Source: a virus
Reading direction: 5' to 3' (one strand)
DNA length: 53,942 nucleotides
Virus record (IMG/VR): IMGVR_UViG_3300047470_000541
Location: 1 to 53,942 of that record
How positions within the stretch are numbered: the first letter of the stretch is position 1; each line of letters starts with the position of its first letter. The position numbers were made by a program, and so were the translations under genes. This document shows positions 1 to 34,754 of the stretch, in pieces. The notes below the pieces were generated by a model. It saw nothing but the letters and a program-made list of their open reading frames with translations. It ran no database searches and had not been told where the DNA came from.

Positions 1-978
1 ATGGCGACTATCGAGCAGCGTCCCAATGGGACATGGCGGGCAAAGATCCGCAAAAAAGGCTATCCATCTCTTTCAGCGTCGTTTGATACGAAAGCTGATG
101 CACAACGGTGGTCGGCAGAAATTGAAGGCGATATGTCGCGAAAGAGATTTGTCGACACCAGGGAAGCGGAGGCCACCACTGTAGCGGAGGCACTTCAGCG
201 ATATGCGCGTGAGATTTCCGCGCAGAAGAAGGGGGCACGGCAGGAGCTTACCAGGATCAAAACCTGGGCCGAAGGCAAATACGGAACTAAGTCCCTGGCA
301 GAGCTTCGATCTTCGGACCTGGCCGATTATCGAGATGCGCGTCTGGCCGAAGGCGTATCCACGAACACTGTGCGCCTGTCACTGGCCCTGATCAGCCACC
401 TCTATACGGTCGCCATCAAGGATTGGGGTATTGAGGGATTGAGCAACCCGGTAGCCAAGCTGCGGATGCCAAAAGGCAGTAGGGAGCGCGATAGACGCCC
501 TTCATCCGTCGAACTTGCTGGGGTACTCAAGGCTTCACGTTCCATTCACAACGAGATGCCAGCCATCATCGAGATCGCAATCGAGACAGCCATGCGCCGT
601 GGTGAGCTACTCACACTGCGAAGAGAGCATATAAAAGGAAAGCACGCTATTCTGGAGGACACCAAGAATGGCAGTCGCCGGTTGGTTCCGCTTTCCATGC
701 GCGCCAGAACCTTGCTCGAATCGCTTCCAGCTCAAATTGATGGCTCAGTTTTCTCCCTGGCGCCGCACTCGGTAAGCCAATATTTCTTGCGCGCATGCCG
801 AGAGGCAAAGGTGGTGGATCTTCACTTTCACGACTTGCGACATGAAGGAACGTCGAGATTGTTTGAAAAGGGCTTGTCGATCATGGAGGTCGCCAGCATC
901 ACTGGGCACAAGACCATGAGCATGCTCAAACGTTATACCCACTTGTGCCCGGATGCTTTGGCCGACAAGCTCGGTTAA
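1..978 (+). CDS. int: Tyrosine-type phage integrase
   Basis: 325 aa site-specific tyrosine recombinase that would integrate and excise the prophage at the tRNA-Cys site. The N-terminal half (about 1-170) carries arm- and core-binding domains. The catalytic domain shows the full set of active residues: Arg199 in TAMRRGEL, Lys222 in TKNG, His277 and Arg280 in HDLRHE, His303 in TGHKT and nucleophile Tyr312 in KRYTH. The window opens on its ATG, so its ribosome site and attL cannot be seen. Its stop overlaps by 3 bp the stop of the convergent excisionase-like gene. Confidence 0.96.
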   Translation: MATIEQRPNGTWRAKIRKKGYPSLSASFDTKADAQRWSAEIEGDMSRKRFVDTREAEATTVAEALQRYAREISAQKKGARQELTRIKTWAEGKYGTKSLAELRSSDLADYRDARLAEGVSTNTVRLSLALISHLYTVAIKDWGIEGLSNPVAKLRMPKGSRERDRRPSSVELAGVLKASRSIHNEMPAIIEIAIETAMRRGELLTLRREHIKGKHAILEDTKNGSRRLVPLSMRARTLLESLPAQIDGSVFSLAPHSVSQYFLRACREAKVVDLHFHDLRHEGTSRLFEKGLSIMEVASITGHKTMSMLKRYTHLCPDALADKLG

Positions 979-4743: not shown

Positions 4744-5667
4744 TTAGGCGGCTGCCTTCAGCGCATCGAGAATTCGCTGCCCCGCCAGAGGCGGTACCGC
4801 ATTGCCAGCCATGTGCATGGTCAAGCGGTGGTTGTCCGGGCGCAGAGTGTCGGGCGGGAACGACATGGCGGCCAGTGCCTCATTCGCCGAAAGCATCCTC
4901 ATCTCATCACCGCGCACCAAAGCCCATCGGTCAAGCGTGGTGATGGTTCCGATCGGGCGGTTGATATCGCGGCCAGTGAGCCCCGAACCTTTTCCGTAGT
5001 AGGGCATGATGAATTGTTCGCCGAAACGTTCGCGACCGTTGCGCACTCTATCGAGTGTGGCCTGGGCCCGGCCCGGCTTATTGATCGGTGACCAGCGGCC
5101 GGCGTTGAAGTCGAGGAAGCTGGCAGCGGGCACATGCTGACGCCGGTGCAGCTCGAGCATCAGCGGCGACCTGCTGCGGGTGCAGACCAAAAACAAGCGT
5201 ACGCGGTGCTGAGGCACGCCAAGGTCCGCGCAATCCACGACATGGGGCGCGATCATGTAGCCCAATGCGGCCATGGCCTGCGACCAAGCGGGGTATAAGG
5301 CCCAAGCCGTGAATTCTTCGACGTTCTCGACCAGTACCACTTCCGGCCGGTGGAACTCTGCAGCTGAAACAACCGCCCAGGCTGTTGATCGCGATGCGTC
5401 GTGCTGAGCGTTCCCAGACTTCTTGCCGCGCGCCTTCGAATGTCCCTGGCAACACGGTGAGGCGAGCATAATGTCGTGGGCCGGAACCTTCGACCAATCC
5501 GCCTGGTGCAGGTCCTGGCAGATGTGAATTGCATCCGGGTGGTTAGCGCTGTGCCACTCGACGGCGACAGGCCAGTGATTGGCGGCCCAGATTACGTCGA
5601 TACCTGCATTGCGGGCACCGGTAGACCATCCGCCGAGACCGGCGAACAAATCGATTGCTGTAGACAT
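4744..5667 (-). CDS. DNA (cytosine-5-)-methyltransferase
   Basis: 307 aa Dcm-type enzyme. Motif I 'DLFAGLGG' (residues 6-13), motif IV 'SPCCQGHS' with likely nucleophile Cys73, motif VI 'VENV' (about 113-116), motif VIII 'PQHRVRLF' and motif X 'GNAVPP' near the C-terminus are all in order. Start at 5667 follows GAGGATC; the frame is open further upstream without a better start. No cognate restriction gene is adjacent, so it is probably an orphan that protects phage DNA or alters host methylation. The short variable region gives no target prediction. Confidence 0.9.
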   Translation of the reverse strand: MSTAIDLFAGLGGWSTGARNAGIDVIWAANHWPVAVEWHSANHPDAIHICQDLHQADWSKVPAHDIMLASPCCQGHSKARGKKSGNAQHDASRSTAWAVVSAAEFHRPEVVLVENVEEFTAWALYPAWSQAMAALGYMIAPHVVDCADLGVPQHRVRLFLVCTRSRSPLMLELHRRQHVPAASFLDFNAGRWSPINKPGRAQATLDRVRNGRERFGEQFIMPYYGKGSGLTGRDINRPIGTITTLDRWALVRGDEMRMLSANEALAAMSFPPDTLRPDNHRLTMHMAGNAVPPLAGQRILDALKAAA

Positions 5668-5767
5668 TGTTGATCCTCGCCGGCTGGCGTGATTCGTTGA
5701 AGTGGGGTATTTGTTTAGATTCGGGCCTGCAACTGGCCGCAATGGCGTAATACGTGGAGAACTTGCA

Positions 5768-6049
5768 ATGGACGCTTCACAGGTAAAACACACTGTAAAA
5801 CTCGACACCAATATCTCCTCTGTGTGCCCTTACTGCACTCAATGGCAGGAAGGTCGAGATATCGACGTAAACATCAACCACCTCATACAGGCTCATGGAG
5901 GGACCGTTCTGCATGTGGGGTGCGAGTCATCAATGGATGATGGTAATCGGCCGTATCATCAGACAGTGGCGATACTGGGCTTCAAAGATATTCCGCCAGA
6001 GAAGCCTCCTGTGAAGTTCGTTATTGAAAGGACAGTTCCAGGGGAATAG
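5768..6049 (+). CDS. Hypothetical protein with a Cys pair
   Basis: 93 aa from the ATG at 5768, with GGAG upstream. Contains 'SVCPYCTQWQ', then a His-rich stretch 'NHLIQAHGGTVLHVGCES', so C-C-H-H spacing could form a zinc finger. Rightward between two leftward methyltransferase genes, again suggesting independent expression. Not recognised. Confidence 0.5.
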   Translation: MDASQVKHTVKLDTNISSVCPYCTQWQEGRDIDVNINHLIQAHGGTVLHVGCESSMDDGNRPYHQTVAILGFKDIPPEKPPVKFVIERTVPGE

Positions 6050-6860: not shown

Positions 6861-8021
6861 TTATTTCTTCGAAAAGGTCTTGGTCAAGGCGCCGTTGACT
6901 GCATGGCCGCGCCTCAGAACAACATTTGCCAACTTCTCGCGGTCCTTCTCGCTATGACTGGCCTGACTGAGCAGGCCGAAATAGCTGTTGGCAGTCTCCC
7001 GCAGATCCTCGGCCGGTGCAGCAGCGGTGCGCTTTATGGCCTGAGCCAGCGAACGCTTGCGGGTGGTTCGCCGCCACGGCTTGATGATGTGACCAACGAA
7101 GTCGACGCCGCGGTCGACCGGTTGCAGGATGGTCTTGGTCGGGTTCAGCTTGGCGCCCAAGCTGGGAAGGAAGGCTTCGACCTCCGCCAGCCAGGCGTTG
7201 AGCTGTTGCGGCGACTCATGCAAGAACACGAAGTCATCGACGTAGCGGACATAATGCTTGGCGCGGAGCGTGTGCTTGGCGAACTGGTCCAGTGCGTCGA
7301 GGTAGACGTTGGCAAAGAACTGCGACGACAGGTTGCCGATGGGCAGGCCGAGATGTGCAGGCTGCGCGGTGAGGCGCTTGTGCTGCGGCACCCGGTTAAA
7401 CAGATGGGCCGCGCTGCGCACCTCGTAGTCTTCGCGAGGGTCGTGCATCAGGATCTGTTCGGCGAGTGCCAGCCACCAGGGCTCGGTGATCTTGGCGGCC
7501 AGCTGCCGACGCAGGACCTGTTTGTCGATGGCGACGAAGAAGTTGGCCAGGTCGAGCTTGAGATACCAGCAGGGCGTCGACCAGTTCTGGCTGGCGCTGC
7601 GGATCTTCGCCTCAAGTCGTTTCGCAGCGTACAACGTGCCGCGCCCGGGGATACAGGCGCAACTGTCCGCTATGAAGCTGGCGTAGAAGCGCGGTGCCAC
7701 ACGGTTGTACAGCAGGTGGTGGACGACGCGGTCCCGGAACGCAGCGGCCCAGACTTCTCGGGCTTTTGGTCGGGTGACCACGAAGCATATCGAACGGCCT
7801 GGCCGGTAAGTGCCGGCGATCAGGTCGTCGTGTAGACCGATCAGATTGCGTTCCAGATCCATTTCGAAGGCCAATGCACTGGCGCTGTTGCGCTTCGTGC
7901 GCCGGCAGTCGTAATAGGCCTGAACCAGTTCGCTGAACGGGTAGGGACCAACAGTCGAATCTGCGGACGGGGCGGACGCGGAGCTCGTTGTTCTTGTCAT
8001 CGTTGTTCTGATTGCCATCAT
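6861..8021 (-). CDS. Diversity-generating retroelement reverse transcriptase
   Basis: 386 aa at the earliest ATG. It copies the template repeat RNA into adenine-mutated cDNA that replaces variable repeats. Palm motifs: 'YLKLDLANFF' (Asp157), the DGR-typical 'GLPIGNLSSQ' (225-234) and catalytic 'YVDD' (260-263), then 'GVDFVGH'. No maturase or endonuclease domain follows, unlike group II introns. The start is unusual: ATG 8021 lies inside the template repeat, so about 20 N-terminal residues are template-encoded in another frame; no clear ribosome site is seen. The next in-frame Met (residue 54) would cut into the conserved part. Last gene of the DGR cassette. Confidence 0.93.
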   Translation of the reverse strand: MMAIRTTMTRTTSSASAPSADSTVGPYPFSELVQAYYDCRRTKRNSASALAFEMDLERNLIGLHDDLIAGTYRPGRSICFVVTRPKAREVWAAAFRDRVVHHLLYNRVAPRFYASFIADSCACIPGRGTLYAAKRLEAKIRSASQNWSTPCWYLKLDLANFFVAIDKQVLRRQLAAKITEPWWLALAEQILMHDPREDYEVRSAAHLFNRVPQHKRLTAQPAHLGLPIGNLSSQFFANVYLDALDQFAKHTLRAKHYVRYVDDFVFLHESPQQLNAWLAEVEAFLPSLGAKLNPTKTILQPVDRGVDFVGHIIKPWRRTTRKRSLAQAIKRTAAAPAEDLRETANSYFGLLSQASHSEKDREKLANVVLRRGHAVNGALTKTFSKK

Positions 8022-8061
8022 CGAAGTTCATGTTGAATGCGTTGTTGGCGGAGCGCTGCGA
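7961..8061 (-). repeat. DGR template repeat (TR)
   Basis: 101 bp. In the coding (minus) sense it carries 30 adenines, many as AAC codons when read in the target-gene frame (that frame gives '...NAFNMNFDDGNQNNDD...'). It matches VR1 (8660-8760) with 15 differences, 14 at template A, and VR2 (9354-9454) with 18 differences, 17 at template A. The GC-rich end near 7961 corresponds to the initiation (IMH-like) segment; each VR has one non-A change there. Overlaps the first 61 bp of the reverse transcriptase ORF. Confidence 0.96.
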
Positions 8062-8232
8062 CCAATCGTGCTATCTACGTCGCCAAGCCGAAGGCAGAAC
8101 CGATCAGCGAGGAAACTGCGCGAGACCAGCACGGACGCTTTAGACCGTCGGTATCTCTGATGCGCATGGCGGTGACCCAGAGGTCAGCGGCACGACCAGA
8201 TTCAATTCGCACAGACCTGAAAGCCGTGACTC

Positions 8233-8589
8233 TCAGGTGGCGGGCGCGGTTGGGATTGAGCGTTTCCAGGCAGACGCCTGCTTGCCGATGGAGGTGGTGA
8301 CCTCTATCGCGGCGGCGTGCTGCCCGACACTGATGAACCGACTCTCTTTGAAGAGCCGCATCAGGAACTCGATGACCTGGACCTTCTCAATTAGCAAGGT
8401 CAGGTGTGGACTCTTGTCCCGGGTCGAGTTGGCCCGGGCAATCAACATCAGCACGTCGATACATTCATCGATGACGCGCTTCCCGAGAGACTGCTTGAGA
8501 TCTCGGGGTATGTTGCGAGTGAGGTTCGTGGCCATCTGCAGCAGGCCGAGCGAAGCCTTGTAGATACTCAAATCCGTGTGCATTCCCAT
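8233..8589 (-). CDS. avd: DGR accessory variability determinant (Avd-like)
   Basis: 118 aa, all-helical and basic, beginning MGMHTDLSIYKASLG. Length, helix pattern ('LSIYKASLGLLQMATNL', 'RVIDECIDVLMLIARAN', 'LLIEKVQVIEFLMRLFKE') and place between target and template match Avd four-helix-bundle proteins. In Bordetella phage BPP-1, Avd forms a pentamer that binds the reverse transcriptase and template RNA. GGAGAG lies about 9 bases before the ATG. 171 bp separate its stop from the template repeat; I see no gene there. Confidence 0.88.
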   Translation of the reverse strand: MGMHTDLSIYKASLGLLQMATNLTRNIPRDLKQSLGKRVIDECIDVLMLIARANSTRDKSPHLTLLIEKVQVIEFLMRLFKESRFISVGQHAAAIEVTTSIGKQASAWKRSIPTAPAT

Positions 8590-8643: not shown

Positions 8644-9264
8644 TTATTGAATAAGCTGACTGCGGACGGGGCGGACGCGGCGCTCGCCGTACTTGCCACC
8701 GTAGTACTGAGTGCCATCATCGAAGAACATGCCGAATGCGTTGCGGGCGGAGCGCTGCGAACTCGACCAGTACCAGGTGTCCCGGAAGGCTTCGGCACCG
8801 CCAGCTTGAAAGGCAGTAATCGAGGTCTGTTCTGGCGACTCTTCGCTGTACAGTTGGCCAGCCGGCTCGCTGTTCGGGTTGTCACCATCGCGGCGGCCAG
8901 CCCAATTCTCTTCGGTGGTCGGCTTGAAGTGGCGATACTGCAGCTCCTGCACGTCGCGCGCCGGGATCGCCCAGTCTGTGAAACCGCCGATATCCAGAGC
9001 CAGCACCTGCTGCGCCAGTTCGCTACCGGCGGCTGCCATGGCTTCAGTATTGGCACGGCTGTTGGTGAAACTGTCGGCGCCTTCGATCTTCTCGCCGTAC
9101 TCTCCCCAAGCACCGCTTAGTTCGTACGCGGCGCCCGCGGTGATGTTCAGGTAGCGGTTACCAGTGTCCGGATCGTGGGTGATCCCGCTGAAGAACCCGC
9201 CGCCGAATGGCTGGCCGATTTCCGGAATGGTCATCGCTGGAGTTGCTTGGGCTGCTGCGGTCAT
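8644..9264 (-). CDS. DGR target protein 1, C-type-lectin-like variable domain
   Basis: 206 aa from the ATG at 9264, chosen for its AGAGGAAAG ribosome site over one 27 bp upstream. The C-terminal part ('FRDTWYWSSSQRSA...RRVRPVRS') is the DUF1566/CLec-like fold used by DGR targets, where surface residues can vary without breaking the fold. The last codons are the 101-bp VR1: relative to the template frame, several Asn codons became Arg, Gly, Phe, Thr and Tyr. The N-terminal half (PFGGGFFSG, GNRYLNITAGAAYEL) is unlike known fibre modules. No signal peptide. Ligand and location unknown. Confidence 0.88.
   Translation of the reverse strand: MTAAAQATPAMTIPEIGQPFGGGFFSGITHDPDTGNRYLNITAGAAYELSGAWGEYGEKIEGADSFTNSRANTEAMAAAGSELAQQVLALDIGGFTDWAIPARDVQELQYRHFKPTTEENWAGRRDGDNPNSEPAGQLYSEESPEQTSITAFQAGGAEAFRDTWYWSSSQRSARNAFGMFFDDGTQYYGGKYGERRVRPVRSQLIQ
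8660..8760 (-). repeat. DGR variable repeat 1 (VR1)
   Basis: 101 bp at the 3' end of target gene 1, aligned without gaps to the template at 7961-8061. 86 of 101 bases are identical. 14 of 15 differences are at template adenines (coding strand), changed to G, T or C; the remaining one is a T-to-G in the GC-rich 3' segment. Confidence 0.96.
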
Positions 9265-9290
9265 GGTCTTTCCTCTTTTCGAAGGCAACA

Positions 9291-9309
9291 AAAAAGGCGC
9301 TGCTGCGCC
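9291..9309 (-). terminator. Hairpin and T-run after VR2 gene
   Basis: GGCGC-AGCA-GCGCC stem-loop followed by six T on the minus strand, between target gene 2 and target gene 1, 45 bp past the end of VR2. Works on paper as an intrinsic terminator; by position it could also serve as the DGR hairpin for VR2. Confidence 0.6.
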
Positions 9310-9340
9310 CGGTGCCGATCAAGAACGAATGATTGAAAGA

Positions 9341-9949
9341 TTAAATAAAGAATCTGCGGACGGGGCGGCCGCGGAGCTCGTGGCCCTTGTCACCGTAGCC
9401 CTGATAGCCACCAGCGAAGGACATGTAGAACGCGACGTAGGCGGAGCGCTGCGATGAAGACCAGTACCAGGTGTCTTTCGCGAACAATTCCGGCACATTC
9501 AACCAGCAGTGGTACAGCTCGCCGCAGGCGGGCAGGTAGAAATCATCGTGGCCGTCAGCTTGGTGCTCGGCGCAGGCGTCTGCTGCTGGATGATCGTCGC
9601 GATCATCGGCGTACAGTGCTTGGGTATTGGCGAGGCCATCGGTCTTGCTGGTAGCCTCAGACTCCTTGCCTCGACCGCCCCACTCATGTTTGCCGAGGTC
9701 GTCCTTGGCGATGATCAGGTAATGCGCCGGAACATCGCCGCGCGCCGCTACCAGGCCGCCATTGAACCCGCCTTGTCCGGGCCAGTATTCGCCGAGCGCC
9801 GGAATAGGGCCTGATGCAACTGCTTGAACATTGGCTGCTGGCGGCAGTGCCTGGGCAAGCATGCCAGCCATTAGCAGCTGAACCATGCGTTCGGACGTGC
9901 CCTTGATCTTGATGCCTTCCGCTTCAATAGAGATCGTATTGGCTTTCAT
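9341..9949 (-). CDS. DGR target protein 2, C-type-lectin-like variable domain
   Basis: 202 aa from the ATG at 9949 (GAGGGAT ribosome site). The N-terminus MKANTISIEAEGIKIKG and 'MVQLLMAGMLAQAL' differ fully from target 1. The C-terminal domain ('DDFYLPACGELYHCWL', 'DTWYWSSSQRSAY...RGRPVRR') is again DUF1566/CLec-like. The final 101 bp are VR2, with Tyr, Val, Ser, Ala, Gly and His replacing template-encoded Asn and Asp. First gene of the DGR cassette. The middle contains an acidic, His-rich stretch. Partner and location unknown. Confidence 0.88.
   Translation of the reverse strand: MKANTISIEAEGIKIKGTSERMVQLLMAGMLAQALPPAANVQAVASGPIPALGEYWPGQGGFNGGLVAARGDVPAHYLIIAKDDLGKHEWGGRGKESEATSKTDGLANTQALYADDRDDHPAADACAEHQADGHDDFYLPACGELYHCWLNVPELFAKDTWYWSSSQRSAYVAFYMSFAGGYQGYGDKGHELRGRPVRRFFI
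9354..9454 (-). repeat. DGR variable repeat 2 (VR2)
   Basis: 101 bp ending target gene 2, gap-free alignment to the template with 83 of 101 identical. 17 of 18 differences lie at template adenines (coding strand); the other is a T-to-G near the GC-rich end. Its substitution pattern differs from VR1, so both were mutated independently. Confidence 0.96.
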
Positions 9950-10012: not shown

Positions 10013-10261
10013 TCACGGAGTACAAATGTGCTCTTGTAGGCTTTCGTCAGACATTCGATCCGCGGCCCAGATGAGCCGCGACACCACGTCTTGCTCTTCC
10101 GTGATGTCGAGCCGTGACATGAGGCTTTTCAGGCGGGCGTCATCGTTGTGGTAGAGGTCCAGCGATATGCGGCGAGAAAGTAGGCGGGCGAGACGTTCGG
10201 TTTCGGACTGCTTGTCCCGGTCGCGTTTCTCCTGCTGACGCTGCGCGGGTGTCTTGGCCAT
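10013..10261 (-). CDS. Hypothetical basic helical protein
   Basis: 82 aa beginning MAKTPAQRQQEKRDRDKQSE, a charged helix, then 'RRISLDLYHNDDARLKSLM' and 'EEQDVVSRLIWAADRM'. This resembles small phage RHH-like or coiled-coil proteins. GGAG lies 5 bases before the ATG; the stop of the upstream gene is 2 bp away. The final codons contain a dyad motif also found at 3831-3848. Function unknown. Confidence 0.6.
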   Translation of the reverse strand: MAKTPAQRQQEKRDRDKQSETERLARLLSRRISLDLYHNDDARLKSLMSRLDITEEQDVVSRLIWAADRMSDESLQEHICTP

Positions 10262-10263
10262 AT

Positions 10264-10920
10264 TCACTCCGGCTGCTTTGGCTCTTTTGCGATGAACACG
10301 GGCCTGGGTCCACCGCGACCAGTCTTGGGATAGTCGATTTCGAACTTGTCCAGGAGGCGACTGAAGGCCCGATAGTTGACCCCGAGCTTTTCGGTGGCTT
10401 GATTGCGGGTCAATCCGAGTTCTTTGAACGCCTTGATCCTCTCGGCATTCTTCGCATCCCTGGCTTCGTCTGGCATCCAAGGGCGTAGGTTTGAGGTGGG
10501 GGCATAACTGGATTTTTTGAAGGAGAAGCCATTTTGCTTGGCGATTGAGTGCAGTTTGCGCCGGTCCATACCGGTGTGTGCCATGGCTTCGGCCTGGGTC
10601 ATGTTTGCCGCGAGATTCCTGATGAGTTCTATCAGGTCGGCCTTGTCCTTGGCGCGTTGTGCAATGCGCTCTTCACGTTCGATATCGCGCTGAGCCATCT
10701 TGTCGAGCCAGACCGTTGTTTCTGCTTTCGGTACGGGCTTTGGCATCTTCTTACGCGGCGGTGGTTCATGGCGCGCTGGGGGAGGCCTGAAGCTTGGCCC
10801 CTCCAACACCTCAATAGTCCCTCCTTTTCCGAGATAGGCCTCCTGAAGCAGGGCCAATTCGTGACGCTGAGGGTCGAGCTCCCTGACCATGTTCAGATCG
10901 TTGCTGATGTATGCGCTCAT
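10264..10920 (-). CDS. Putative DNA-binding protein with two HTH segments
   Basis: 218 aa. The middle is proline- and lysine-rich (RPPPARHEPPPRKKMPKP). It is followed by 'NMTQAEAMAHTGMDRRKLHSIA' and a C-terminal 'LTRNQATEKLGVNYRAFSRLLD', both HTH-like. Start overlaps the stop of the exonuclease gene by 4 bp, placing it in the recombination operon. Possible regulator or accessory recombination factor; not firmly identified. Confidence 0.6.
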   Translation of the reverse strand: MSAYISNDLNMVRELDPQRHELALLQEAYLGKGGTIEVLEGPSFRPPPARHEPPPRKKMPKPVPKAETTVWLDKMAQRDIEREERIAQRAKDKADLIELIRNLAANMTQAEAMAHTGMDRRKLHSIAKQNGFSFKKSSYAPTSNLRPWMPDEARDAKNAERIKAFKELGLTRNQATEKLGVNYRAFSRLLDKFEIDYPKTGRGGPRPVFIAKEPKQPE

Positions 10921-11684
10921 GCTGCTTTATTCCGCAGTTTCACCTCATACCCGTCGACCAGTAGTTTGAATTGCCACAGGTCTTCCTCAAGCTTTTCGAT
11001 GTAGTCGTCATCGCGCTTGAACTCTTGAAGCCAGAGTTGGCGCCCGACTGGCTTGAGCAAGGGGCAGTACATCCCGATGTGCCACCACTTCCGGCCAGTG
11101 ATCCACATGCAACCCTGCACCTGGTCGATGATCCCGCTGGCATCGTTGTCGATGTGGAAGGAGCGCAGCTTTTCCGGGGCAAGGAAACATTTGTACTCCG
11201 AGCCTCCGTCCTCACCAATAAAGCCGTCAGCACTGGCCCCGAAGGCGCCGTCGTCGGTCTTTACCAGCCCTACCTGCGTGACGATCAGGCCGGTTTGGAT
11301 TTCGTGTTCCATGCGGGCTTCTGGCTCAAGCTCATGGCCGCGGCGCATCTGCCAGGTCTCGAATCCGTTGTCGAGCGGCTTGCCGCCGATGCGCTCAACT
11401 GCCAGTTGGAAGGCGTAATCAAGAGCAGCCGAGGAGGGCTCGCCGACGGTTTCGCCATCGAGGGCACGCTGTACGACTTCGGCCTTTGGCCCAGCCTTGT
11501 AGCCCGCCAGCTCGCGGGCTTTTGCCTCGCCATGGCCGGCAAGCATGGCATCGACATAGGTGCGTTGTTGCGTGGTGAGCCCGTTCACCTTCGACCGGGC
11601 GGTTGTGAACATGCTGGCTGTAATACAGCCTGCGCGCTCCTGGAACCAGATGTCTGACCCCTGCGTGCAATTGATCTGGATCAT
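10917..11684 (-). CDS. YqaJ / lambda-exonuclease-like viral recombinase nuclease
   Basis: 255 aa. The N-terminus 'QGSDIWFQERAGCITASMF' matches the YqaJ/lambda Exo entry motif (Q-G-x-x-x-W-x-x-x-R-x-G-x-x-T-A-S). The core has 'MRRGHELEPEARMEHE', then 'GASADGFIGEDGGSEYKCF', giving the metal-binding D...ExK site. It degrades one strand of double-stranded DNA ends to leave 3' single strands for annealing. Coupled (ATGA) to the ERF gene upstream, the classic exonuclease plus annealase pair. Confidence 0.9.
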   Translation of the reverse strand: MIQINCTQGSDIWFQERAGCITASMFTTARSKVNGLTTQQRTYVDAMLAGHGEAKARELAGYKAGPKAEVVQRALDGETVGEPSSAALDYAFQLAVERIGGKPLDNGFETWQMRRGHELEPEARMEHEIQTGLIVTQVGLVKTDDGAFGASADGFIGEDGGSEYKCFLAPEKLRSFHIDNDASGIIDQVQGCMWITGRKWWHIGMYCPLLKPVGRQLWLQEFKRDDDYIEKLEEDLWQFKLLVDGYEVKLRNKAA

Positions 11685-12439
11685 TGGGTTTTCTCCAAAA
11701 TCGCTTTGCGTGCAGTGACGGCAGTCTTCACCGTTCCGTAACCATGCGTATCGCCAGATGCCTGCAAGACCTTCAGGCTAGCTTGCCAAACGTCCTTCAG
11801 TTCATCGGGAGTTTTCGTCTGTTCGACTCGCTCCAGAATGTCTGCGACCACTTGGGCCCGCATGTCGTCGGTATCAGAACCGTCAGCCGATTGGCCGTCA
11901 TCGTCCCGCGCTTCGCCGGTCGTAATGTTGAGCAAGGCACACATCACGTAGCGCTTCCCGTAAGTAACGGATGATCCAACGGCTTGCACGTCGTTCCGGC
12001 CCTTGCCGGCGTCGATCGGCAAAAACATCGTGGTGTCTTCCCGGTGCCCAGCGCTATGCATGAGGATGCCCTTGACGTTCACCCCAGTAGCTTCCCGGTC
12101 AACCTTGAACGTAATAGCGAAGCCATGCCGCTGCATGATCGGCTTCAACGTCACGTTGATGTCGTCGAGGGTGGCGTAGGTGTTGCCGGTATGTAGGTTC
12201 ACCGCGCCTTCTACTACGGTTGGTATCTCGCACTGCATCTGCGCCATCGCGGCGTTGAAGGCCTGCTCGGCATCTTTTGCCTGCATGCGTTCGTGCATTT
12301 GCAGAAGTCGTTCCATTTTGTCGATGTCGCAAGATGGATCGGCAGCAGCCCGGCTGATGACTGCCATGATGCTGGTGTCACTGGAGATCGGCACCACGGT
12401 CTGGCGGCGCTGCTCCGGCATGATGATTTCTGTGCTCAT
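11681..12439 (-). CDS. erf: ERF-family single-strand annealing protein
   Basis: 252 aa. The core 'FNAAMAQMQCEIPTVVEG', 'YATLDDINVTLKPIMQRHGFAI' and 'GSSVTYGKRYVMCALLNI' is the ERF (essential recombination function, P22 type) signature; the acidic C-terminal third is variable. It would form rings on single strands and anneal complementary DNA for recombination or circularisation of the phage genome. Works with the adjacent nuclease. Confidence 0.9.
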   Translation of the reverse strand: MSTEIIMPEQRRQTVVPISSDTSIMAVISRAAADPSCDIDKMERLLQMHERMQAKDAEQAFNAAMAQMQCEIPTVVEGAVNLHTGNTYATLDDINVTLKPIMQRHGFAITFKVDREATGVNVKGILMHSAGHREDTTMFLPIDAGKGRNDVQAVGSSVTYGKRYVMCALLNITTGEARDDDGQSADGSDTDDMRAQVVADILERVEQTKTPDELKDVWQASLKVLQASGDTHGYGTVKTAVTARKAILEKTQ

Positions 12440-12449
12440 GCTGGCTTCC

Positions 12450-13607
12450 TTAGTAAGTGATGGCGATGGCTGGGATCTTGCGTTGGGCGATGAGGGTGAT
12501 GGCCTGCTTGGCGCATTCTTCGGTCATGCCACCAGAGACGAATGCTTCTAGCGCTGCGCGGTTGATCGACTTCTTGTGGGCAAGATCCGCCTCGCGGGCT
12601 TGTGCCTGCTGAAGCTCGAATGCCACTGCAGCGGCCTGGCGATCCAGTTCATCCTGACGCGCACGCTCTACTGCTGCAGCCTGACGCTGCTCTGCGGCGA
12701 TGCGGGCTTGCTCTGCTTGCTGTTCAGCAGCCATTTGGTCAGCCTTGGCCTGAGCTGCTTGTCGTTCGGCTTGCTCGGCCTGGAGTTGCAGTTGCAGTCG
12801 CTGGCGTTCGGCGGCCGCTTCGGCATCCCGTGCAGCTTGCTCAGTGGCACGCTGTGCGGCGGCGGCTTGGTCGATCAGATCCTGCTCGCGCTTGGCTGCG
12901 GCATCACGTTCTGCTTGAGCGCGCTGCTCGGCTTCGATGCGAGCCTGCTCGGACGCTACGCGGGCAATCTCCGCTTCACGGTCACGCTGAGCCTGTGTTT
13001 CGACCTCTGCGCGCAACCGGACCAGCTCGGCCTGTTCGGCCTCGTATTGGTCTCGGGCGGAGAGGGCGGCGCGCAGCCGGGTCAGGACGTGGTCCTTGGT
13101 GCGGGCCGCTTCAGCTTCGAACTCTTGCCAGTGGTCACCAATCTGTATGGCTTCTGCTGTGGCGATTCCGCTCCGTAGTTCGGCAGCACTCAAAAGGCCA
13201 ATATCGACAGCAAGATCCTCGATCGCCTGGATCGCATCGACATGCCTGTCCTTGCGCGCTATCTCGGCAGCTTCCCAATCGGTCAGCGGTTTGCGGGTTT
13301 CATCCCGCAGCGCGTCCATGGCATCGACAAATTCCTTCAGTTCGGCCTCGACGACCTTCGGCTGCTCCTTCAAGCGCTTCAGGTATTCGCGACCAGGCTT
13401 TTCGACGGCGACTTTGGACTTGCTAACCTTGGCGGCAAGGGAGGCGATGCGGTCGCGGCCTTTGGCAGTGGACAGGTCCGGCACCTGGGAGCTGACTTCT
13501 TCTTTCACTGCAGCAAGGAAGGGCTTCAGGCCGTCCTTCACATAGATGACAGGGGCATTGGCTTCGCTGATGTCGTCGATGGTGACGGCAAGTTGAGTCG
13601 CGGACAT
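12450..13607 (-). CDS. Coiled-coil protein of the recombination operon
   Basis: 385 aa from the ATG at 13607 (GGAAGGA upstream). Residues about 60-190 are helical and charged; about 190-340 are a continuous Ala/Gln/Glu/Arg-rich coiled coil, often mislabelled TolA-like. A compact tail 'NRAALEAFVSGGMTEECAKQAI' ends it. This protein type is commonly placed beside ERF/exo pairs in Pseudomonas phages; a structural or DNA-binding support role is likely but unproven. No membrane segment, so not a TolA. Confidence 0.7.
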   Translation of the reverse strand: MSATQLAVTIDDISEANAPVIYVKDGLKPFLAAVKEEVSSQVPDLSTAKGRDRIASLAAKVSKSKVAVEKPGREYLKRLKEQPKVVEAELKEFVDAMDALRDETRKPLTDWEAAEIARKDRHVDAIQAIEDLAVDIGLLSAAELRSGIATAEAIQIGDHWQEFEAEAARTKDHVLTRLRAALSARDQYEAEQAELVRLRAEVETQAQRDREAEIARVASEQARIEAEQRAQAERDAAAKREQDLIDQAAAAQRATEQAARDAEAAAERQRLQLQLQAEQAERQAAQAKADQMAAEQQAEQARIAAEQRQAAAVERARQDELDRQAAAVAFELQQAQAREADLAHKKSINRAALEAFVSGGMTEECAKQAITLIAQRKIPAIAITY

Positions 13608-13647
13608 GGGGATTCCTTCCGCCATGCAGGCGGCGCATGAGTTCGAG

Positions 13648-16352: not shown

Positions 16353-17213
16353 TCAGACCTTCTGTGCATTCCAGACGAGTAGAACCTTGGCGTGGATGGT
16401 TACGTCATCGATCCGCGCAGTCTGATTCTCGTAATGTTTGTTGTCAGAGATCATCCGCAGGTGATCCTCGTCGACCTGCTGCAGTCTTTTGATATAGAGG
16501 AGGCCATGCCAGGTCAGTACGTAAACGCCATCCCCAATGAACTCGTTTACGCCACGGTCAACGATGACAGGATCTTTGTCATTGATCGTGCCTTCCATGC
16601 TCTGGCCCCAGCCGGTGATCATCGCCAGCGCAGCAGCAGAGGTATAGGTGACACCTTTCTCGCGCAGCACATCCTCCCGCACGATCAGGTTGCGAATGGC
16701 CTCGTTATAGTCGGCCGGCACCTGGCCGTGTCCCATCGCAGCGCGCACGTCGTACTGCGGAATCAGGATCTCGTCCGGCCTTGCCTTCAACCCCGAGAAG
16801 TCGGCTTCAATGACTTTCCCGCCCGACTCGCTCGCAACTGCCAGCGCGGCAGCAGCTAGTTTCTCCTGGGCAGCCGAATCAAGACTCTTGCCGGCATGCT
16901 TGCGGATCATTTCAAGCATTTTTTGAGCAGCCCCGGTTCCAGTAACAGCGACACCAGTGCTCTCGGTTTGCCCCACCTTTCTATGGGGAGGCTCCCCCTT
17001 GCCCGATAGAAGCCAGTCGACCGTGGTGTCGTAGCCCTCAGCTATGGCAATGAGGTTCTCGTTCTTGATGTTCTCCGTGTCCCCGGCAAACCACTGGCGC
17101 ACGGCTTCATAGCTGACCCCGCAAGTGGTCGCCAAGTCACGCTTAAACCCACGTACGCCGATTTCCGGCTTCCTCGCGAGCACAAGTTTTGTAATTCGAT
17201 CAGTGGTTTTCAT
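16353..17213 (-). CDS. cI: CI-type repressor, HTH plus S24 peptidase domain
   Basis: 286 aa. The N-terminal HTH (about residues 15-60) contains 'CGVSYEAVRQWFAGD'. The C-terminal LexA/S24 domain has the catalytic Ser205 in 'GWGQSMEGTI' and Lys242 in 'LLYIKRLQ', with 'GDGVYVLTWHG' between. It should bind the 12-bp palindromes at both operator clusters and keep lysogeny. At the expected cleavage bond the sequence is Ala159-Met160-Gly ('RAAMGHG') instead of Ala-Gly. No clear ribosome site precedes the ATG, which lies only 12 bp from an operator, as in lambda where the cI transcript from pRM is leaderless. Confidence 0.92.
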   Translation of the reverse strand: MKTTDRITKLVLARKPEIGVRGFKRDLATTCGVSYEAVRQWFAGDTENIKNENLIAIAEGYDTTVDWLLSGKGEPPHRKVGQTESTGVAVTGTGAAQKMLEMIRKHAGKSLDSAAQEKLAAAALAVASESGGKVIEADFSGLKARPDEILIPQYDVRAAMGHGQVPADYNEAIRNLIVREDVLREKGVTYTSAAALAMITGWGQSMEGTINDKDPVIVDRGVNEFIGDGVYVLTWHGLLYIKRLQQVDEDHLRMISDNKHYENQTARIDDVTIHAKVLLVWNAQKV

Positions 17214-27445: not shown

Positions 27446-27907
27446 ATGGCAGTACTACGAAGCGAGGTCAAAGCCTTCATCGTGCAGGCTCTTGCCTGCT
27501 TCGATACGCCATCTCAGGTGGTTGAATCGGTCAAGAAGGAATTCGGGATCGAGATGAGCCGGCAGCAGTGCGAATCTCACGATCCTACGAAGTTTGCCGG
27601 GCAAGGCCTTGGCGCCAAGTGGGTCGAACTGTTCCACGCTGCCCGCAAGCGCTTTCGTGAAGAGACAATCGACATCCCGATCGCCAACCGAGCCTATCGA
27701 CTCCGAGCGCTTGGTCGCATGGCTGAGAAGGCAGAGAACATGAAGAACATGGCGTTGACTGCTCAGTTGTTGGAGCAGGCTGCCAAGGAAGTCGGGGATA
27801 TCTACGTCAACCGACACCGAAGGGATGAGCCCGACGACGAGCCAGCCGTTCCGACCCGTATCCAGGTCGATGTAGTGGATGCGAGGAAGCCAGATGCCGA
27901 GCCTTAA
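27446..27907 (+). CDS. terS: Terminase small subunit, DUF2280-like
   Basis: 153 aa from the ATG at 27446, with GGATGA upstream. 'LRSEVKAFIVQALACFDTPSQVVESVKKEFGIEMSRQQCESHDP' is a DUF2280-type HTH front; the second half is helical with a basic/acidic tail. It directly precedes and overlaps (14 bp) the large terminase gene, as small subunits do, and would recognise the packaging start site. Confidence 0.82.
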   Translation: MAVLRSEVKAFIVQALACFDTPSQVVESVKKEFGIEMSRQQCESHDPTKFAGQGLGAKWVELFHAARKRFREETIDIPIANRAYRLRALGRMAEKAENMKNMALTAQLLEQAAKEVGDIYVNRHRRDEPDDEPAVPTRIQVDVVDARKPDAEP

Positions 27908-29192
27908 CGTTCCGCAGGCTCAATTCCTAACGTTGCCACACAAATTCCGCGCATTCGTTGCCGGGTTCGGTTCGGGAAAGACCTGGGTTGGCTGTTCGGC
28001 GCTCAGCAAGCATTTCATGGAGTGGCCAAGTGTCAACGCTGGCTACTTCGCACCGACTTACCCGCAGATCCGCGACATCTTCTATCCGACCATGGACGAG
28101 GTGGCCTATGACTGGGGGCTGAAGACAAAGATCAACCAAGCGAACCATGAGGTTCACATCTACAGCGGCCGGCAGTATCGCGGCACGGTGATTTGCCGGT
28201 CGATGGAAAAGCCGCAGACCATCGTTGGCTTCAAGATCGGTCACGCGCTGGTGGACGAGCTGGACGTGCTGACGTCGATCAAGGCTCAACAGGCCTGGCG
28301 CAAGATCATCGCCCGGATGCGTTACAACCTGCCGGGGCTGAAGAACGGCGTCGACGTGACAACGACACCGGAAGGCTTCAAGTTCGTCTTCTTGCAGTTC
28401 GTGAAGCAGTTGCGCGACAAGCCTTCGCTGAAGGACATGTACGGCTTGGTGCAGGCCAGCACCTTCGACAATGAGTTGAACCTGCCGGATGACTACATCC
28501 AGTCGCTGATGGAGTCGTACCCGCCTCAGCTGATTCTGGCTTACCTGAACGGCCAGTTCGTCAACCTGACGTCCGGGTCGATCTACCACGCATACGACCG
28601 CAAGCTGAACCAGTGTTTCGACACTGTGCAGCCCGGCGAGCCGTTGTTCATCGGCATGGACTTCAACGTCGGCAAGATGGCCGCGATCACCCACGTCAAG
28701 CGTGACCAGGGTCTGCCGCGCGCGGTGGATGAGCTGGTAGAAGGCTATGACACGCCGGACATGATCAAGCGCATCAAGGAGCGCTACTGGCGCTACAACG
28801 GCAACGACTTCGATAAGACCTGCGAAATCCGGATCTATCCGGACGCTTCCGGAGACTCGCGAAAGTCCGTCAACGCCAGCCTCACTGATATCGCAATGCT
28901 GAAACAGGCCGGTTTCGCGGTGATTGCGCCAGCAGCAAACCCGCCTGTGAAGGACCGGATCAACGCCATGAACGCGATGCTCTGCAACGCGGCTGGGGAG
29001 CGTCGCTACCTGATCAACTCGTTCACCTGTCCAACCTATGCAGACGGCCTTGAGCAACAGATTTGGGCACCCAACGGTGAGCCAGACAAGAGTCAGGGCA
29101 ATGACCACGCAAACGATGCAGGCGGTTACTTCATCTACAAAGACTTCCCGATCATCAAACGCACCGCCACCAGCGAACCTCTGAGAATGTGA
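27894..29192 (+). CDS. terL: Terminase large subunit
   Basis: 432 aa from the ATG at 27894. ATPase: Walker A 'AGFGSGKT' (near residue 28), Walker B 'HALVDELD'. Nuclease: 'FIGMDFNVGKMA', 'IYPDASGDS' and the C-terminal 'NDHANDAGGYF' supply the acidic metal-binding triad. Motor and headful/cos nuclease of packaging. Confidence 0.95.
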   Translation: MPSLNVPQAQFLTLPHKFRAFVAGFGSGKTWVGCSALSKHFMEWPSVNAGYFAPTYPQIRDIFYPTMDEVAYDWGLKTKINQANHEVHIYSGRQYRGTVICRSMEKPQTIVGFKIGHALVDELDVLTSIKAQQAWRKIIARMRYNLPGLKNGVDVTTTPEGFKFVFLQFVKQLRDKPSLKDMYGLVQASTFDNELNLPDDYIQSLMESYPPQLILAYLNGQFVNLTSGSIYHAYDRKLNQCFDTVQPGEPLFIGMDFNVGKMAAITHVKRDQGLPRAVDELVEGYDTPDMIKRIKERYWRYNGNDFDKTCEIRIYPDASGDSRKSVNASLTDIAMLKQAGFAVIAPAANPPVKDRINAMNAMLCNAAGERRYLINSFTCPTYADGLEQQIWAPNGEPDKSQGNDHANDAGGYFIYKDFPIIKRTATSEPLRM

Positions 29193-29194
29193 AT

Positions 29195-30583
29195 ATGAGT
29201 GATGACCCTAGCAAGACGCTCAAGGTCGTGGATGACATGCGCGAAGATTGGGCAATCATCGACGCTCTCATGGGCGGGACGAGGGCCATGCGCAAGGCCG
29301 GCACGAAGTTTTTGCCGCAGTGGCCGAAGGAGGAGAGCGACGCCTATCAGGCCCGGCTCAAGACTTCGACGTTATTGCCAGCCTTGAGCGAGACGGTGCA
29401 AAACATGACCGGGCGCGTATTTGCCGATCCGATCACGCTTACCGAAGACGTGCCGGACCAGATCAGAGAGATGGCCGAGGACTTCGACCTTCAGGGGAAC
29501 AACCTGCAGGTCTGGGCTCAGTCGTTTTTCAGTGGCGGCCTATCCCATGGACTGTTTCATGTTCTGGTCGACCATCCCAAGGCTGAAGGCATCAAGACCA
29601 AGGCTGAAGAGAAATCAGCTGGCGTTCGCCCCTACGCGGTCATGATCAAGCCCGGCCAGGTGCTCGGCTGGCGGTCTGAAAACAAAGGCGGCGAGCAGGT
29701 CCTGACGCAGTTCCGGTACATGGAGTGCGTCGAGGTCGATGACGGTGCGTTCGGTACCAAAAGCGTGGACCAGATCCGCGTGCTCGTGCCGGGCGGGTGG
29801 GCCACCTACCGCGAAGTCGATGACGGCAACGGCAAGAAGACCTGGCAGAAGGACGACGAGGGCCTAACCAGCCTCACCGTGATCCCGCTGACAACCTTCT
29901 ACACCAAGCGCACCGGATTCCTCACCGCAACGCCCCCGCTCCTTGAGTTGGCGAACATGAACGTCAAGCATTGGCAGTCCCAAAGCGACCAGGACAACAT
30001 CCTGCACATCGCTCGGGTGCCGATGTTGGCAGTGATCGGCCTCGATGAAGGGGAGTCGATCACCGTCGGCGCCGGATCGGCCACAAGGCTGCCGAAAGAC
30101 TGCGACATGAAGTGGGTCGAGCACACGGGCAAGGCGATCGAGGCCGGCCGCACGTCGCTGCTTGATCTCGTCGAAGACATGCGCCTGGCCGGAGCAAAGC
30201 TGCTCCAGAAGGAAAAGCAGACCGTCAAGACTGCTTCCCAGTCCGAGGAAGAGGCCGCGCAGGAGATGAGCCCGCTCCAGACCATGGCCGGGCAACTCGA
30301 GGATGCGCTAGACCAGGTGCTCCAGTTCTTCGCGCTTTGGATGAAGCTCGACGACGGCGGCCACGTTAAGGTCAAGGGCAACTTCGACGTCGACTTCAGC
30401 CCAGAAACGACCATGCCTTTCCTGCTGAACCTGAATAAGGCCCGGATCCTCTCCGACGAGAGCCTTTTCCACGAGGTTCAACGGCGCGGCCTTCTCAGCG
30501 ATGAATTGGACTGGGAAGAAGAGAAGGCCAAGGTCGCAGCGCAGCCGATCTGGCTGGCCCCTTTGACTCCGCCCCAGCAATAA
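29195..30583 (+). CDS. Portal protein (DUF4055-like)
   Basis: 462 aa. 'AYQARLKTSTLLPALSETVQNMTGRVFADP' at the front and 'ANMNVKHWQSQSDQDNILHIARVPMLAVIG', 'SLLDLVEDMRLAGAKLL' in the middle are typical of DUF4055-type portals. Follows the terminase by 2 bp and precedes scaffold and coat genes. Forms the dodecameric entry of the head. Confidence 0.85.
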   Translation: MSDDPSKTLKVVDDMREDWAIIDALMGGTRAMRKAGTKFLPQWPKEESDAYQARLKTSTLLPALSETVQNMTGRVFADPITLTEDVPDQIREMAEDFDLQGNNLQVWAQSFFSGGLSHGLFHVLVDHPKAEGIKTKAEEKSAGVRPYAVMIKPGQVLGWRSENKGGEQVLTQFRYMECVEVDDGAFGTKSVDQIRVLVPGGWATYREVDDGNGKKTWQKDDEGLTSLTVIPLTTFYTKRTGFLTATPPLLELANMNVKHWQSQSDQDNILHIARVPMLAVIGLDEGESITVGAGSATRLPKDCDMKWVEHTGKAIEAGRTSLLDLVEDMRLAGAKLLQKEKQTVKTASQSEEEAAQEMSPLQTMAGQLEDALDQVLQFFALWMKLDDGGHVKVKGNFDVDFSPETTMPFLLNLNKARILSDESLFHEVQRRGLLSDELDWEEEKAKVAAQPIWLAPLTPPQQ

Positions 30584-30598
30584 CCGAACACCGAACAC

Positions 30599-30625
30599 AG
30601 CCCTGGCATCCGCCGGGGCTTTTTT
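30599..30625 (+). terminator. Terminator-like hairpin after the portal gene
   Basis: AGCCCTGGC-ATCC-GCCGGGGCT (9 bp with one G-T pair) followed by TTTTT, inside the late operon. Confidence 0.7.
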
Positions 30626-30703
30626 ATGGGCGCGATTCCGGATGGATAGCGCCGCGCCGGGCCGGATGGCTCAACAAATGGGCGGACGCCCGGAGATGCA
30701 TCA

Positions 30704-31462
30704 ATGAAACTGAAATTGGACGACCAAGGCCACGTTGTATTGCAAGACGGCAAGCCTGTGTACGTGTACGACGATGGCAAAGAGGTCGCTTTCGACGCTC
30801 CTGGCACCGTGAACACGATCACCCGGCTGAATGCTGAAGCCAAGTCCCACCGCGAAGGCAAAGAGGCTGCTGAAACTGCCCTGAAGGCTTTCGATGGGAT
30901 CACGGACGGCGCCGCCGCTAAAAAGGCCCTGGAGATCGTTACAAACCTCGATCAGAAAAAACTGGTGGATGCCGGCGAGATCGACAAGGTGAGGGAAGAA
31001 ATCAGCAAAGCCTACAAAGGCCAGCTCGACGAAGCCAACACCAAATCAGCGACCTTCGAGAAGCAGCTCTACGAGGAAAAGATCGGCGGTGCATTCAGCC
31101 GTTCCAAGTTCATCGGCGAGAAGCTGGCCATCCCCGCAGACCTGGTCCAATCCAAATTCGGCGCCGCCTTCAAAGTTGAGGATGGCAAAACCATCGCCTA
31201 CGACCAGCACGGCCAGAAGATCTACAGCCGCACGCGTCCCGGCGAAATCGCTGACTTCGACGAAGCAATCGAAACCCTTGTTGAGCAATACCCGCACCGC
31301 GATCACATCTTGAAGGGAAGCGGAGCCAATGGCTCTGGCGCCCCGAACAACGGTGGCAATGGCGGTAATGGCAAAAAATCTATCTCCCGATCCCAGTTCG
31401 ATGCACTTGACCCAATGGGCAAGCATGCACACGTCTCTGCGGGCGGCGAAGTTACCGACTGA
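30704..31462 (+). CDS. Head scaffolding protein
   Basis: 252 aa, charged and helical in the centre (EAKSHREGKEAAETALKAF...EISKAYKGQLDEANTKS), with a Gly/Asn-rich linker 'NNGGNGGNGKK' and a compact end. Position right before the coat gene and composition fit a scaffold that guides procapsid assembly. Confidence 0.75.
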   Translation: MKLKLDDQGHVVLQDGKPVYVYDDGKEVAFDAPGTVNTITRLNAEAKSHREGKEAAETALKAFDGITDGAAAKKALEIVTNLDQKKLVDAGEIDKVREEISKAYKGQLDEANTKSATFEKQLYEEKIGGAFSRSKFIGEKLAIPADLVQSKFGAAFKVEDGKTIAYDQHGQKIYSRTRPGEIADFDEAIETLVEQYPHRDHILKGSGANGSGAPNNGGNGGNGKKSISRSQFDALDPMGKHAHVSAGGEVTD

Positions 31463-31478
31463 TCCCTAGGAGCAATCC

Positions 31479-32636
31479 ATGAGCAACACTCTCACCGGCC
31501 TTACCACCACGATCTACAACGCACTGGACGTCGTGTCGCGCGAACTGGTCGGGTTCATCCCGGCTGTATCGTCTGACATGACCTATGACCGCGCCGCTGT
31601 AGGTCAGACCGTCACCTCGCCTGTGGCGCCGGCTGCAACCGCATCCGATATCACCCCGGCCGTGACTCCGCCAAACGATGGCGACCAGAGTATCGGCTCC
31701 GTGTCGATGACCATTACCAAGGCTCGCCGGGTTCCGGTGCGTTGGAACGGTGAAGAGAAACGCGGCCTGGATAACAATGGCGCGTCGTACAACGTCATCC
31801 TGCGCGACCAGCTCGCTCAGGGTATGCGTGCACTGGTGAACGAGGTCGAGTCCGACATCGCCAGCCTCTTCACCAAGACCTCGCGTGCCTATGGCACCGC
31901 CGGTACAGTGCCGTTCGCCACCAACCTGGCAGAAGCTGCGCAGATGCGCAAAATCCTGTCGGACAACGGCGCACCAATGAGCGACCTGCAGATGGTGCTG
32001 GACACCACTGCCGGCGCGAGTATGCGCACCCTGGGCCAACTGACCAAGGCGAACGAAGCCGCTGACACTAGCTTGCTGCGTCGTGGCGTGCTGTTGGATG
32101 TGCACGGCTTTGCGATCCGCGAATCGGCACAGGTCAAAACCCCTGTGGTCGGTACCGGCGCTGCTGGCACCACCAACACTACGGGTTACGCCGTAGGCGC
32201 CACTGTCATCACCCTGGCCTCGGCCGGTACCGGCTCGATCCTGGCCGGTGACGTGATCACTTTTGCTGGTGATACCGCCAACAAGTACGTCGTTGCCTCC
32301 GGCGATGCTGACGTCTCCAACGGCGGCACCATCACCCTGGCTGCACCTGGCCTGCGCAAAGCGATCCCAGCCGCCGCAACCCTGGTCACCGTGATTGCCG
32401 CGACCACCCGCAACATGGCGTTTGCCCGCTCGGCTCTGGCTGTTGCCACCCGCGCACCGGCTCTGCCAGAAGGTGGCGACAGCGCGTCCGATCGCATGAT
32501 CATCACTGACCCGGTCAGCGGCCTCTCGTTCGAGATCTCGCTGTACAAGCAATACCGCCAAATCCAGTACGAAATCGCACTGGCATGGGGTGTTGCTGCA
32601 GTCAAAACCGAGCACATGGCTCTGCTGCTCGGCTAA
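31479..32636 (+). CDS. Major capsid protein, P22 coat-like
   Basis: 385 aa. 'VSRELVGFIPAVSSDMTYDRAAVGQTV' near the start and 'LLRRGVLLDVHGFAIRES', 'NMAFARSALAVATRAPA', 'EISLYKQYRQIQYEIALAWGVAAV' are features of the P22-type coat family (HK97 fold). A Gly/Thr-rich section (about 225-290) looks like the inserted I-domain loop. AGGAG ribosome site. Confidence 0.82.
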   Translation: MSNTLTGLTTTIYNALDVVSRELVGFIPAVSSDMTYDRAAVGQTVTSPVAPAATASDITPAVTPPNDGDQSIGSVSMTITKARRVPVRWNGEEKRGLDNNGASYNVILRDQLAQGMRALVNEVESDIASLFTKTSRAYGTAGTVPFATNLAEAAQMRKILSDNGAPMSDLQMVLDTTAGASMRTLGQLTKANEAADTSLLRRGVLLDVHGFAIRESAQVKTPVVGTGAAGTTNTTGYAVGATVITLASAGTGSILAGDVITFAGDTANKYVVASGDADVSNGGTITLAAPGLRKAIPAAATLVTVIAATTRNMAFARSALAVATRAPALPEGGDSASDRMIITDPVSGLSFEISLYKQYRQIQYEIALAWGVAAVKTEHMALLLG

Positions 32637-32643
32637 TCGGATT

Positions 32644-32665
32644 GCCCGGGGCTTCGGCTCCGGGC
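32644..32665 (+). terminator. Stable hairpin with TTCG loop after the coat gene
   Basis: GCCCGGGGC-TTCG-GCTCCGGGC, 9-bp stem with one G-T pair and the very stable UUCG tetraloop. Only a weak T run follows (TTATC), so it may protect the abundant coat mRNA more than terminate. Confidence 0.6.
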
Positions 32666-32687
32666 TTATCAATCTCTGGAGAAGCAC

Positions 32688-32852: not shown

Positions 32853-32890
32853 CAAGCCAAACCGGCGGAAACCGATAGCAGGAGCCGAAC

Positions 32891-33283: not shown

Positions 33284-33284
33284 T

Positions 33285-33923: not shown

Positions 33924-33924
33924 T

Positions 33925-34746: not shown

Positions 34747-34754
34747 GGCCCGAC

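Follow-up and report, generated by a model that had tools for sequence, protein, structure and literature searches.

Early-operon targets of a diversity-generating retroelement clade in phages of Proteobacteria

Introduction

In the literature covered here, phage diversity-generating retroelements (DGRs) are usually described as receptor-switching tools. The DGR of BPP-1 (mtd/avd/TR/brt) diversifies a tail protein encoded beside the virion genes; its retrohoming requires a cruciform (PMC3240598), and a spacer RNA recruits the complex of reverse transcriptase (RT) and Avd (PMC12875486). Likewise, Roux et al. 2021 class the viral targets of three RT clades as mostly tail proteins (PMC8144416). 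DUF1566 targets, multiple VRs and a TR overlapping the RT start have already been described (PMC6642488, PMC3521204). For Burkholderia phage Magia, DGR targets were noted by the authors in genes 47 and 57, and the announcement suggests a change of host range; the early position of these genes is not discussed in the portion consulted (PMC7883833).

Here we analyse a DGR in a Pseudomonas phage window, i.e. the whole stretch of 53,942 nucleotides of IMG/VR record IMGVR_UViG_3300047470_000541. The locus shares with BPP-1 the order target–Avd–TR–RT, adenine-specific changes, a C-terminal VR in a C-type lectin fold and a GC hairpin after a VR. However, the BPP-1 target is a tail protein beside the virion genes, whereas the targets here, and in relatives, are two or three small proteins of an early operon, and the RT is only 32% identical to BPP-1 Brt. 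Magia has an RT of the same clade and two short lectin-fold targets in its cI-side operon, albeit these are shorter and match target 2 (T2) weakly (38% over 65 residues).

Results

The window contains a complete DGR consisting of RT, Avd, TR and two targets, arranged leftward in the order target 2, target 1 (T1), Avd, TR, RT (Table 1). The features expected of a DGR were found, i.e. an RT, adenine specificity between TR and VR, an Avd and a VR at the C-terminus of a C-type lectin fold; the two features of BPP-1-type tropism switching, a tail target in the late block and a 3' spacer RNA (RF03022), were not found in the window. The earlier note, made from the sequence alone, had placed both targets in a leftward early operon, outside the virion gene block and more than 35 kb from the fibre gene, and this placement holds. 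The leftward run starts below the cI-like repressor and includes ERF, YqaJ exonuclease and HTH genes, and the virion genes lie apart, at 27.9–46.4 kb on the other strand. The distance to the fibre gene is 36.5 kb on the linear map; since the window starts at the integrase, a circular molecule would reduce it to about 14.4 kb, to which any missing sequence has to be added. Even on a closed circle, the fibre gene lies beyond the integrase and in another operon than the targets.

Table 1. Features of the DGR cassette and of its surroundings in the window.
Feature	Position	Strand	Support
Integrase, opposite strand in the window	1..978	+	PHROG 1, E 9.3e-56
Cytosine-5 DNA methyltransferase, downstream of RT	4744..5811	-	PF00145, E 3.7e-37
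DGR reverse transcriptase	6861..8021	-	PF00078, E 9.8e-19; PHROG 1423, E 1.2e-117
TR, 31 A, overlaps start of RT ORF	7957..8065	-	
RT-15 structured RNA (RF03018), directly 5' of TR	8059..8249	-	179.6 bits, E 6.3e-45, full length
bAvd accessory protein	8233..8589	-	PF22296, 45.1 bits (cut-off 40); PHROG 3206, Avd protein of DGR
Hairpin after VR1, 7 G-C pairs, 4-nt loop	8612..8629	-	
Target 1 (T1), 206 aa, single C-type lectin domain	8644..9264	-	Model pLDDT 85.6
VR1, C-terminus of T1	8660..8762	-	TR comparison
Terminator-like hairpin and T-run after VR2	9295..9310	-	
Target 2 (T2), 202 aa, N-terminal beta-beta-alpha module and Lcl/DUF1566-type C-type lectin domain	9341..9949	-	Model pLDDT 90.2
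VR2, C-terminus of T2	9350..9458	-	TR comparison
Upstream genes of the same leftward run: 82-aa ORF, HTH protein, YqaJ exonuclease, ERF, 391-aa PHROG 1376 protein	10013..13625	-	
cI-like repressor, heads the leftward region	16353..17213	-	PHROG 4, E 1.4e-41
Virion gene block: terminase, capsid, sheath, tape measure, baseplate	27879..46418	+	
Tail fibre gene	46460..48175	+	PHROG 863, E 9.4e-32; PHROG 6202 and 11303, tail fibre

Three further genes of the window were recorded. A DNA methyltransferase at 6073-6840 (-) is apparently split by one in-frame stop into ORFs 6436-6840 and 6073-6399, which reflects either a pseudogene or a sequence error. A phosphoadenosine-phosphosulfate reductase-like gene is present at 2242-3144 (-), and an O-acetyltransferase gene with a possible role in serotype conversion at 48780-49916 (-).

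Both VRs were confirmed as adenine-specific variants of the TR at 7957-8065 (-). VR1 differs from the TR at 14/30 A sites and 2/73 others, and VR2 at 17/31 A sites and 3/78 others. The TR holds nine Asn codons (AAC or AAT), so that up to about 10^17 proteins could in principle be encoded. Examination was extended to 143 loci in addition to the window, 80 of 198 viral matches being retained in the search for related loci; 12 RT loci had no target of the T1/T2 family in view. Leaving out the window copy (L001), two loci with a spurious TR match beside an RT remnant (L003 and L004) and one without a start codon (L074), 114 loci, including the window, provided 253 usable TR/VR pairs (259 before three loci were dropped). 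Across these pairs 3455/8039 A sites differ, as compared to 236/18401 others, and removal of nine copied contigs leaves 3171/7365 A sites and 215/16866 others.

Near-identical loci display the same pattern. Between L021 and L080 the TR and 3119 other sites are identical, while the VR differs at 19/66 A sites and 0/143 others; L080 and L082, viral records with the same source number, differ at 32/66 VR A sites, 0/143 others and 8/3156 sites elsewhere. Likewise, the VR differences between L136 and L137 fall almost only at A sites. In several other near-identical pairs (e.g. L105/L106) no VR change was found. As near-identical loci differ at VR adenines alone, the comparison of sequences indicates that the DGR is active in relatives, presumably with ongoing retrohoming.

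The codons derived from AAY in 224 distinct VRs of clade loci are strongly non-random: Cys (7 observed vs 148 expected), Arg, Ala and Pro are rare, and Tyr, Gly, Thr and Leu are common. A reading of this bias as protein selection was rejected; the two Ser codon sets are opposed (AGY 210 observed vs 151 expected, TCY 12 vs 45) and sites were pooled, which leaves room for effects of the RT or of the site, the opposed sets hinting at such a bias.

A GC-rich hairpin with a stem of at least 7 pairs follows 90/117 near T1 genes and a T-tailed hairpin follows 100/108 near T2 genes, as compared to stems of at least 7 pairs at 4/310 control gene ends. The hairpin after T1 genes resembles the BPP-1 cruciform, albeit with a loop that is mostly CTTG rather than GRNA. 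An Rfam scan of the window reported only RT-15, located 5' of the TR, and not Phage_DGR (RF03022), which in BPP-1 lies 3' of the TR. RT-15 (RF03018) was present in 7/7 further clade loci tested, and in the six with positions compared it ends within 6 nt of the TR start. Since the TR overlaps the RT start, any 3' element would fall within the RT coding sequence. RT-15 probably forms the 5' portion of the template RNA, which would give this Rfam family, for which no function is stated, a probable role as template-RNA leader.

The earlier note had described the two targets as having unrelated N-termini, which proved mostly wrong: T1 and T2 belong to one family of DUF1566/Lcl-type C-type lectins. 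Both match PHROG 4245 over nearly equal ranges of the profile (410-581 and 410-580), and their models share the C-type lectin fold. The top solved structure for both models is 8q4e, the C-terminal domain of Legionella Lcl (T2: Z 13.0, rmsd 3.6, 121 residues; T1: Z 11.5, rmsd 2.8, 122 residues), and D3 orf68 is found among the viral structure matches. The Pfam Lcl_C family (PF07603) scored 32.0 and 24.7 bits, in both cases under the curated cut-off of 34.9. With respect to the N-terminal parts, T1 is predicted to be a lectin domain alone, and only the first ~45 residues of T2 are without a counterpart; residues 5-34 form a beta-beta-alpha module and residues 39-42 a linker that is predicted poorly, and the claim is thus true for this part only. 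The idea that the T2 module is common to other early proteins was rejected, as it matched 91 target ORFs and just one other ORF, weakly (E 0.03). A fibre shaft or attachment domain is absent from both targets, which are single lectin domains. Long phage proteins annotated as S74 peptidase, collagen repeat or tail fibre also end in the same domain.

Legionella Lcl is a surface adhesin, and cellular DGRs are known to have DUF1566 lipoprotein targets. Both facts would suit surface or periplasmic proteins that alter the exterior of the lysogen, Lcl being the closest solved relative of the targets. However, an export signal of the kind that such a role implies was not seen in T1 or T2. In agreement with the earlier note, hydropathy revealed no signal peptide (15-residue maximum 1.08 for T1 and 1.43 for T2), and the hydrophobic helix of T2 is preceded by a beta-hairpin in the model. 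A function at the cell surface therefore appears very improbable.

The early position of the targets is a property of the clade. Counted over 113 loci (3 of 116 dropped, not dereplicated), the integrase family lies downstream wherever found (76/76 loci) and cI lies upstream in 52/53; in 38/42 loci that show both, cI, targets and integrase are all on one strand, an order from which the window departs with its integrase on the other strand. In a tree of 34 RTs, 28 proteobacterial RTs, among them the Magia RT and that of Shewanella phage QDWS, form one clade with support of 100/99. Owing to long branches the outer joins are uncertain, which does not affect this 28-row group. The RTs of BPP-1, phiARM81mr and Bise fall outside the clade, and in these phages the RT directly follows the virion genes or hypothetical genes after them. 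Among the neighbours, DNA methyltransferase families of the window type were found in 33/116 loci, a 'host nuclease inhibitor' gene occurs in the QDWS neighbourhood and a Lar-family gene in that of D3. The PMBT3 homologue lies beside lysis genes.

In 34 loci a target is found upstream of the RT at a distance of over 3 kb, always on the RT strand, and in all 12 of these with cI in view it starts 0.5-2.3 kb below cI and shares its strand. Similarly, the homologues of D3 (orf68), PMG1, FBPa42 and phi_D3 are located just below cI. Such places would be expected if the targets (T1–T3) were lysogeny-linked exclusion proteins, expressed from the prophage and binding varied parts of incoming rival phages in the manner of rexAB-type genes. 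Against this stand the position of most T1 and T2 genes deep within the recombination operon, the result of a promoter scan of the window, in which promoter-like sites were no commoner than in shuffles (2 vs 3.2), and the retention of the gene by jumbo phages that we take to be strictly lytic. Lysogeny-linked exclusion is the nearest rival to the reading preferred below, albeit a doubtful one.

Relatives of the targets persist in phages without an RT. Among 30 target-bearing phage records, 25 had no RT of this clade among the matches listed (40 of 63 RT records). Nineteen RT-less records, including PAN70, which was found with T2 only, were searched whole (duplicates, D14O and FBPa19 left out), and the RT was absent in 19/19, with only remnants in Aurca01 and Medea1. 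A set of Pseudomonas genomes (drawn evenly) contained the target family in 14/149; the RT was present in nine of the 14 and absent in five. Around the target, three of these five RT-less genomes have a cI-family match together with recombination genes or an integrase, one has a cI-family match only and one an integrase-family match only, which places the target in a repressor or recombination-operon context in 4/5; one of the five retains a 43-residue piece of RT. In combination, the RT-less relatives are found mostly in the same early position.

Some of these records display additional features. In Aurca01 and Medea1 (L003:6605-7184 and L004:12593-13154) a 73-residue remnant of the RT tail with a stop is retained and the targets are intact. 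The gene beside the remnant occupies the place that Avd, TR and RT have in Cruim01; it is presumably of HNH/NUMOD4 type, and the records label it RecB or hypothetical. D3 orf68 (L008:8965-9525) is frameshifted inside the VR relative to PMG1 and phi_D3. Two RT-less Pseudomonas family members (L158:9468-10205 and L159:8983-9717) carry ~60 extra residues past the VR-like end.

A homologue is also found in nine records of Wroclawvirus jumbo phages (L009, L145-L152). Compared to the TR of Haboob, a phage of P. aeruginosa, the PA5oct VR differs at 15/33 A sites and 2/70 others, a pattern that, as far as sequence comparison goes, is the mark of a DGR product, though PA5oct is without an RT. The other jumbo VRs are less clean (14-20/33 A sites, 6-14/70 others). 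Four haplotypes account for the nine VRs, with little variation inside each: in the group of Deifobo, 30-2, Paride and MIJ3 the VR differs at 0-6/105 sites and the rest of the gene at 11-23/387, and between haplotype groups the VR differs at 17-33 sites. The VR and the remaining gene seem to have different histories. Ongoing action of a DGR in trans on the jumbo phages was rejected as a simple reading, given four near-constant haplotypes. Frozen imports would fit better; constancy within the groups suggests that the loop was made by a DGR elsewhere and then imported and kept.

The PA5oct homologue, EST35_0104, is located in the long terminal repeat; such repeats of phages often hold early host-takeover genes. 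It is not marked for ESI-MS/MS in the PA5oct record, in which 19/39 CDSs at 46-95 kb are marked, one of them of 73 aa. The marked proteins include a recombination enzyme, so that marking is not confined to structural proteins. The missing mark is weak evidence for a non-virion protein.

These observations bear on a BPP-1-like function, in which T1 and T2 would be virion proteins, i.e. subunits of the fibre tip or of a decoration, with genes outside the late block. BPP-1 itself, with mtd beside the virion genes, provides a precedent, long fibre-like proteins of other phages carry this domain at their tip, and the PMBT3 homologue lies near lysis genes. However, the targets are on the strand opposite the late operon in the window and, in the 38 loci noted above, between cI and integrase on one strand; neither has a shaft or attachment domain, T1 being a lectin domain alone, and the PA5oct homologue is not marked as detected by MS. 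Moreover, family members occur in podo-, sipho-, myo- and jumbo phages, whose tails are unrelated, taking morphology in part from record names. Displaced virion proteins are thus an unlikely reading.

Discussion

The earlier note had named two possibilities for the targets: proteins of the virion whose genes lie elsewhere, or binders that are not part of the virion. We consider the second likely, because the early position is conserved across the RT clade and the targets are shaftless single lectin domains, because RT-less homologues are kept mostly in the early position and in lytic jumbo phages, and because PA5oct, the sole record with virion MS marks, leaves the homologue unmarked. A DGR that is aimed at small binders encoded among early genes, and not at the tail fibre, probably diversifies a protein working inside the infected cell. 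We accordingly lean towards the reading that this DGR is active, that it belongs to a phage branch with early, non-virion targets, and that each variant binds one intracellular partner.

The mechanism that we envisage runs as follows. As the sequence comparisons show, RT, Avd and TR rewrite the positions of TR adenines in two small C-type lectin domains, and in other loci often in three, the changes falling in the C-terminal loops. The targets would be expressed early and/or from the prophage and remain cytoplasmic, where each variant may bind one intracellular partner via its one variable loop, the partner most likely belonging to host defence or else to a competing phage. As the partner varies between hosts, a population with many variants would contain some binders. 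Winning variants could then be retained after loss of the RT and passed to other phages, including lytic jumbo phages. The DNA methyltransferases, the 'host nuclease inhibitor' gene of QDWS and the Lar-family gene of D3 nearby make counter-defence or phage–phage conflict the first choice of role, the most likely one from gene context, although many genes of early operons have nothing to do with defence. Points against this preferred reading are the PMBT3 copy near lysis genes, the occurrence of the domain in fibre-like proteins, the kinship with the Lcl adhesin and the hydrophobic helix of T2.

Several described proteins can be compared with the targets directly. The C-terminal domain of Legionella Lcl and DUF1566 (PF07603) share their fold, but the Pfam scores stay below cut-off and the targets have no export signal that we could see. 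D3 orf68 and PA5oct EST35_0104 share the homologous lectin domain and a VR-like C-terminus, but unlike the window the D3 and PA5oct genomes are RT-less. A literature search of titles and abstract starts, with most subscription journals outside its coverage, did not find early-operon DGR targets or an association of RT-15 with a DGR. As far as this search goes, it is apparently new that the targets lie early across the clade, that RT-15 adjoins the TR on its 5' side and that frozen DGR products occur in RT-less and jumbo phages.

On a wider and more tentative view, phages of Proteobacteria may possess a dedicated DGR branch, with its own RT clade, an RT-15 leader and two to three targets, that serves as an intracellular antibody-like repertoire against proteins of host defence or of rival phages, the winners being fixed by RT loss or by jumbo phage capture with the loop frozen. 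The early-operon RT clade provides a defined cultured set (Cruim01, Haboob, LPPA56, Magia, the D3 relatives and Paride) in which a role of DGRs other than in receptor recognition can be pursued. If the targets bind intracellular proteins, DGRs would evolve binders against cellular machinery, and the frozen variants are ready for ligand testing.
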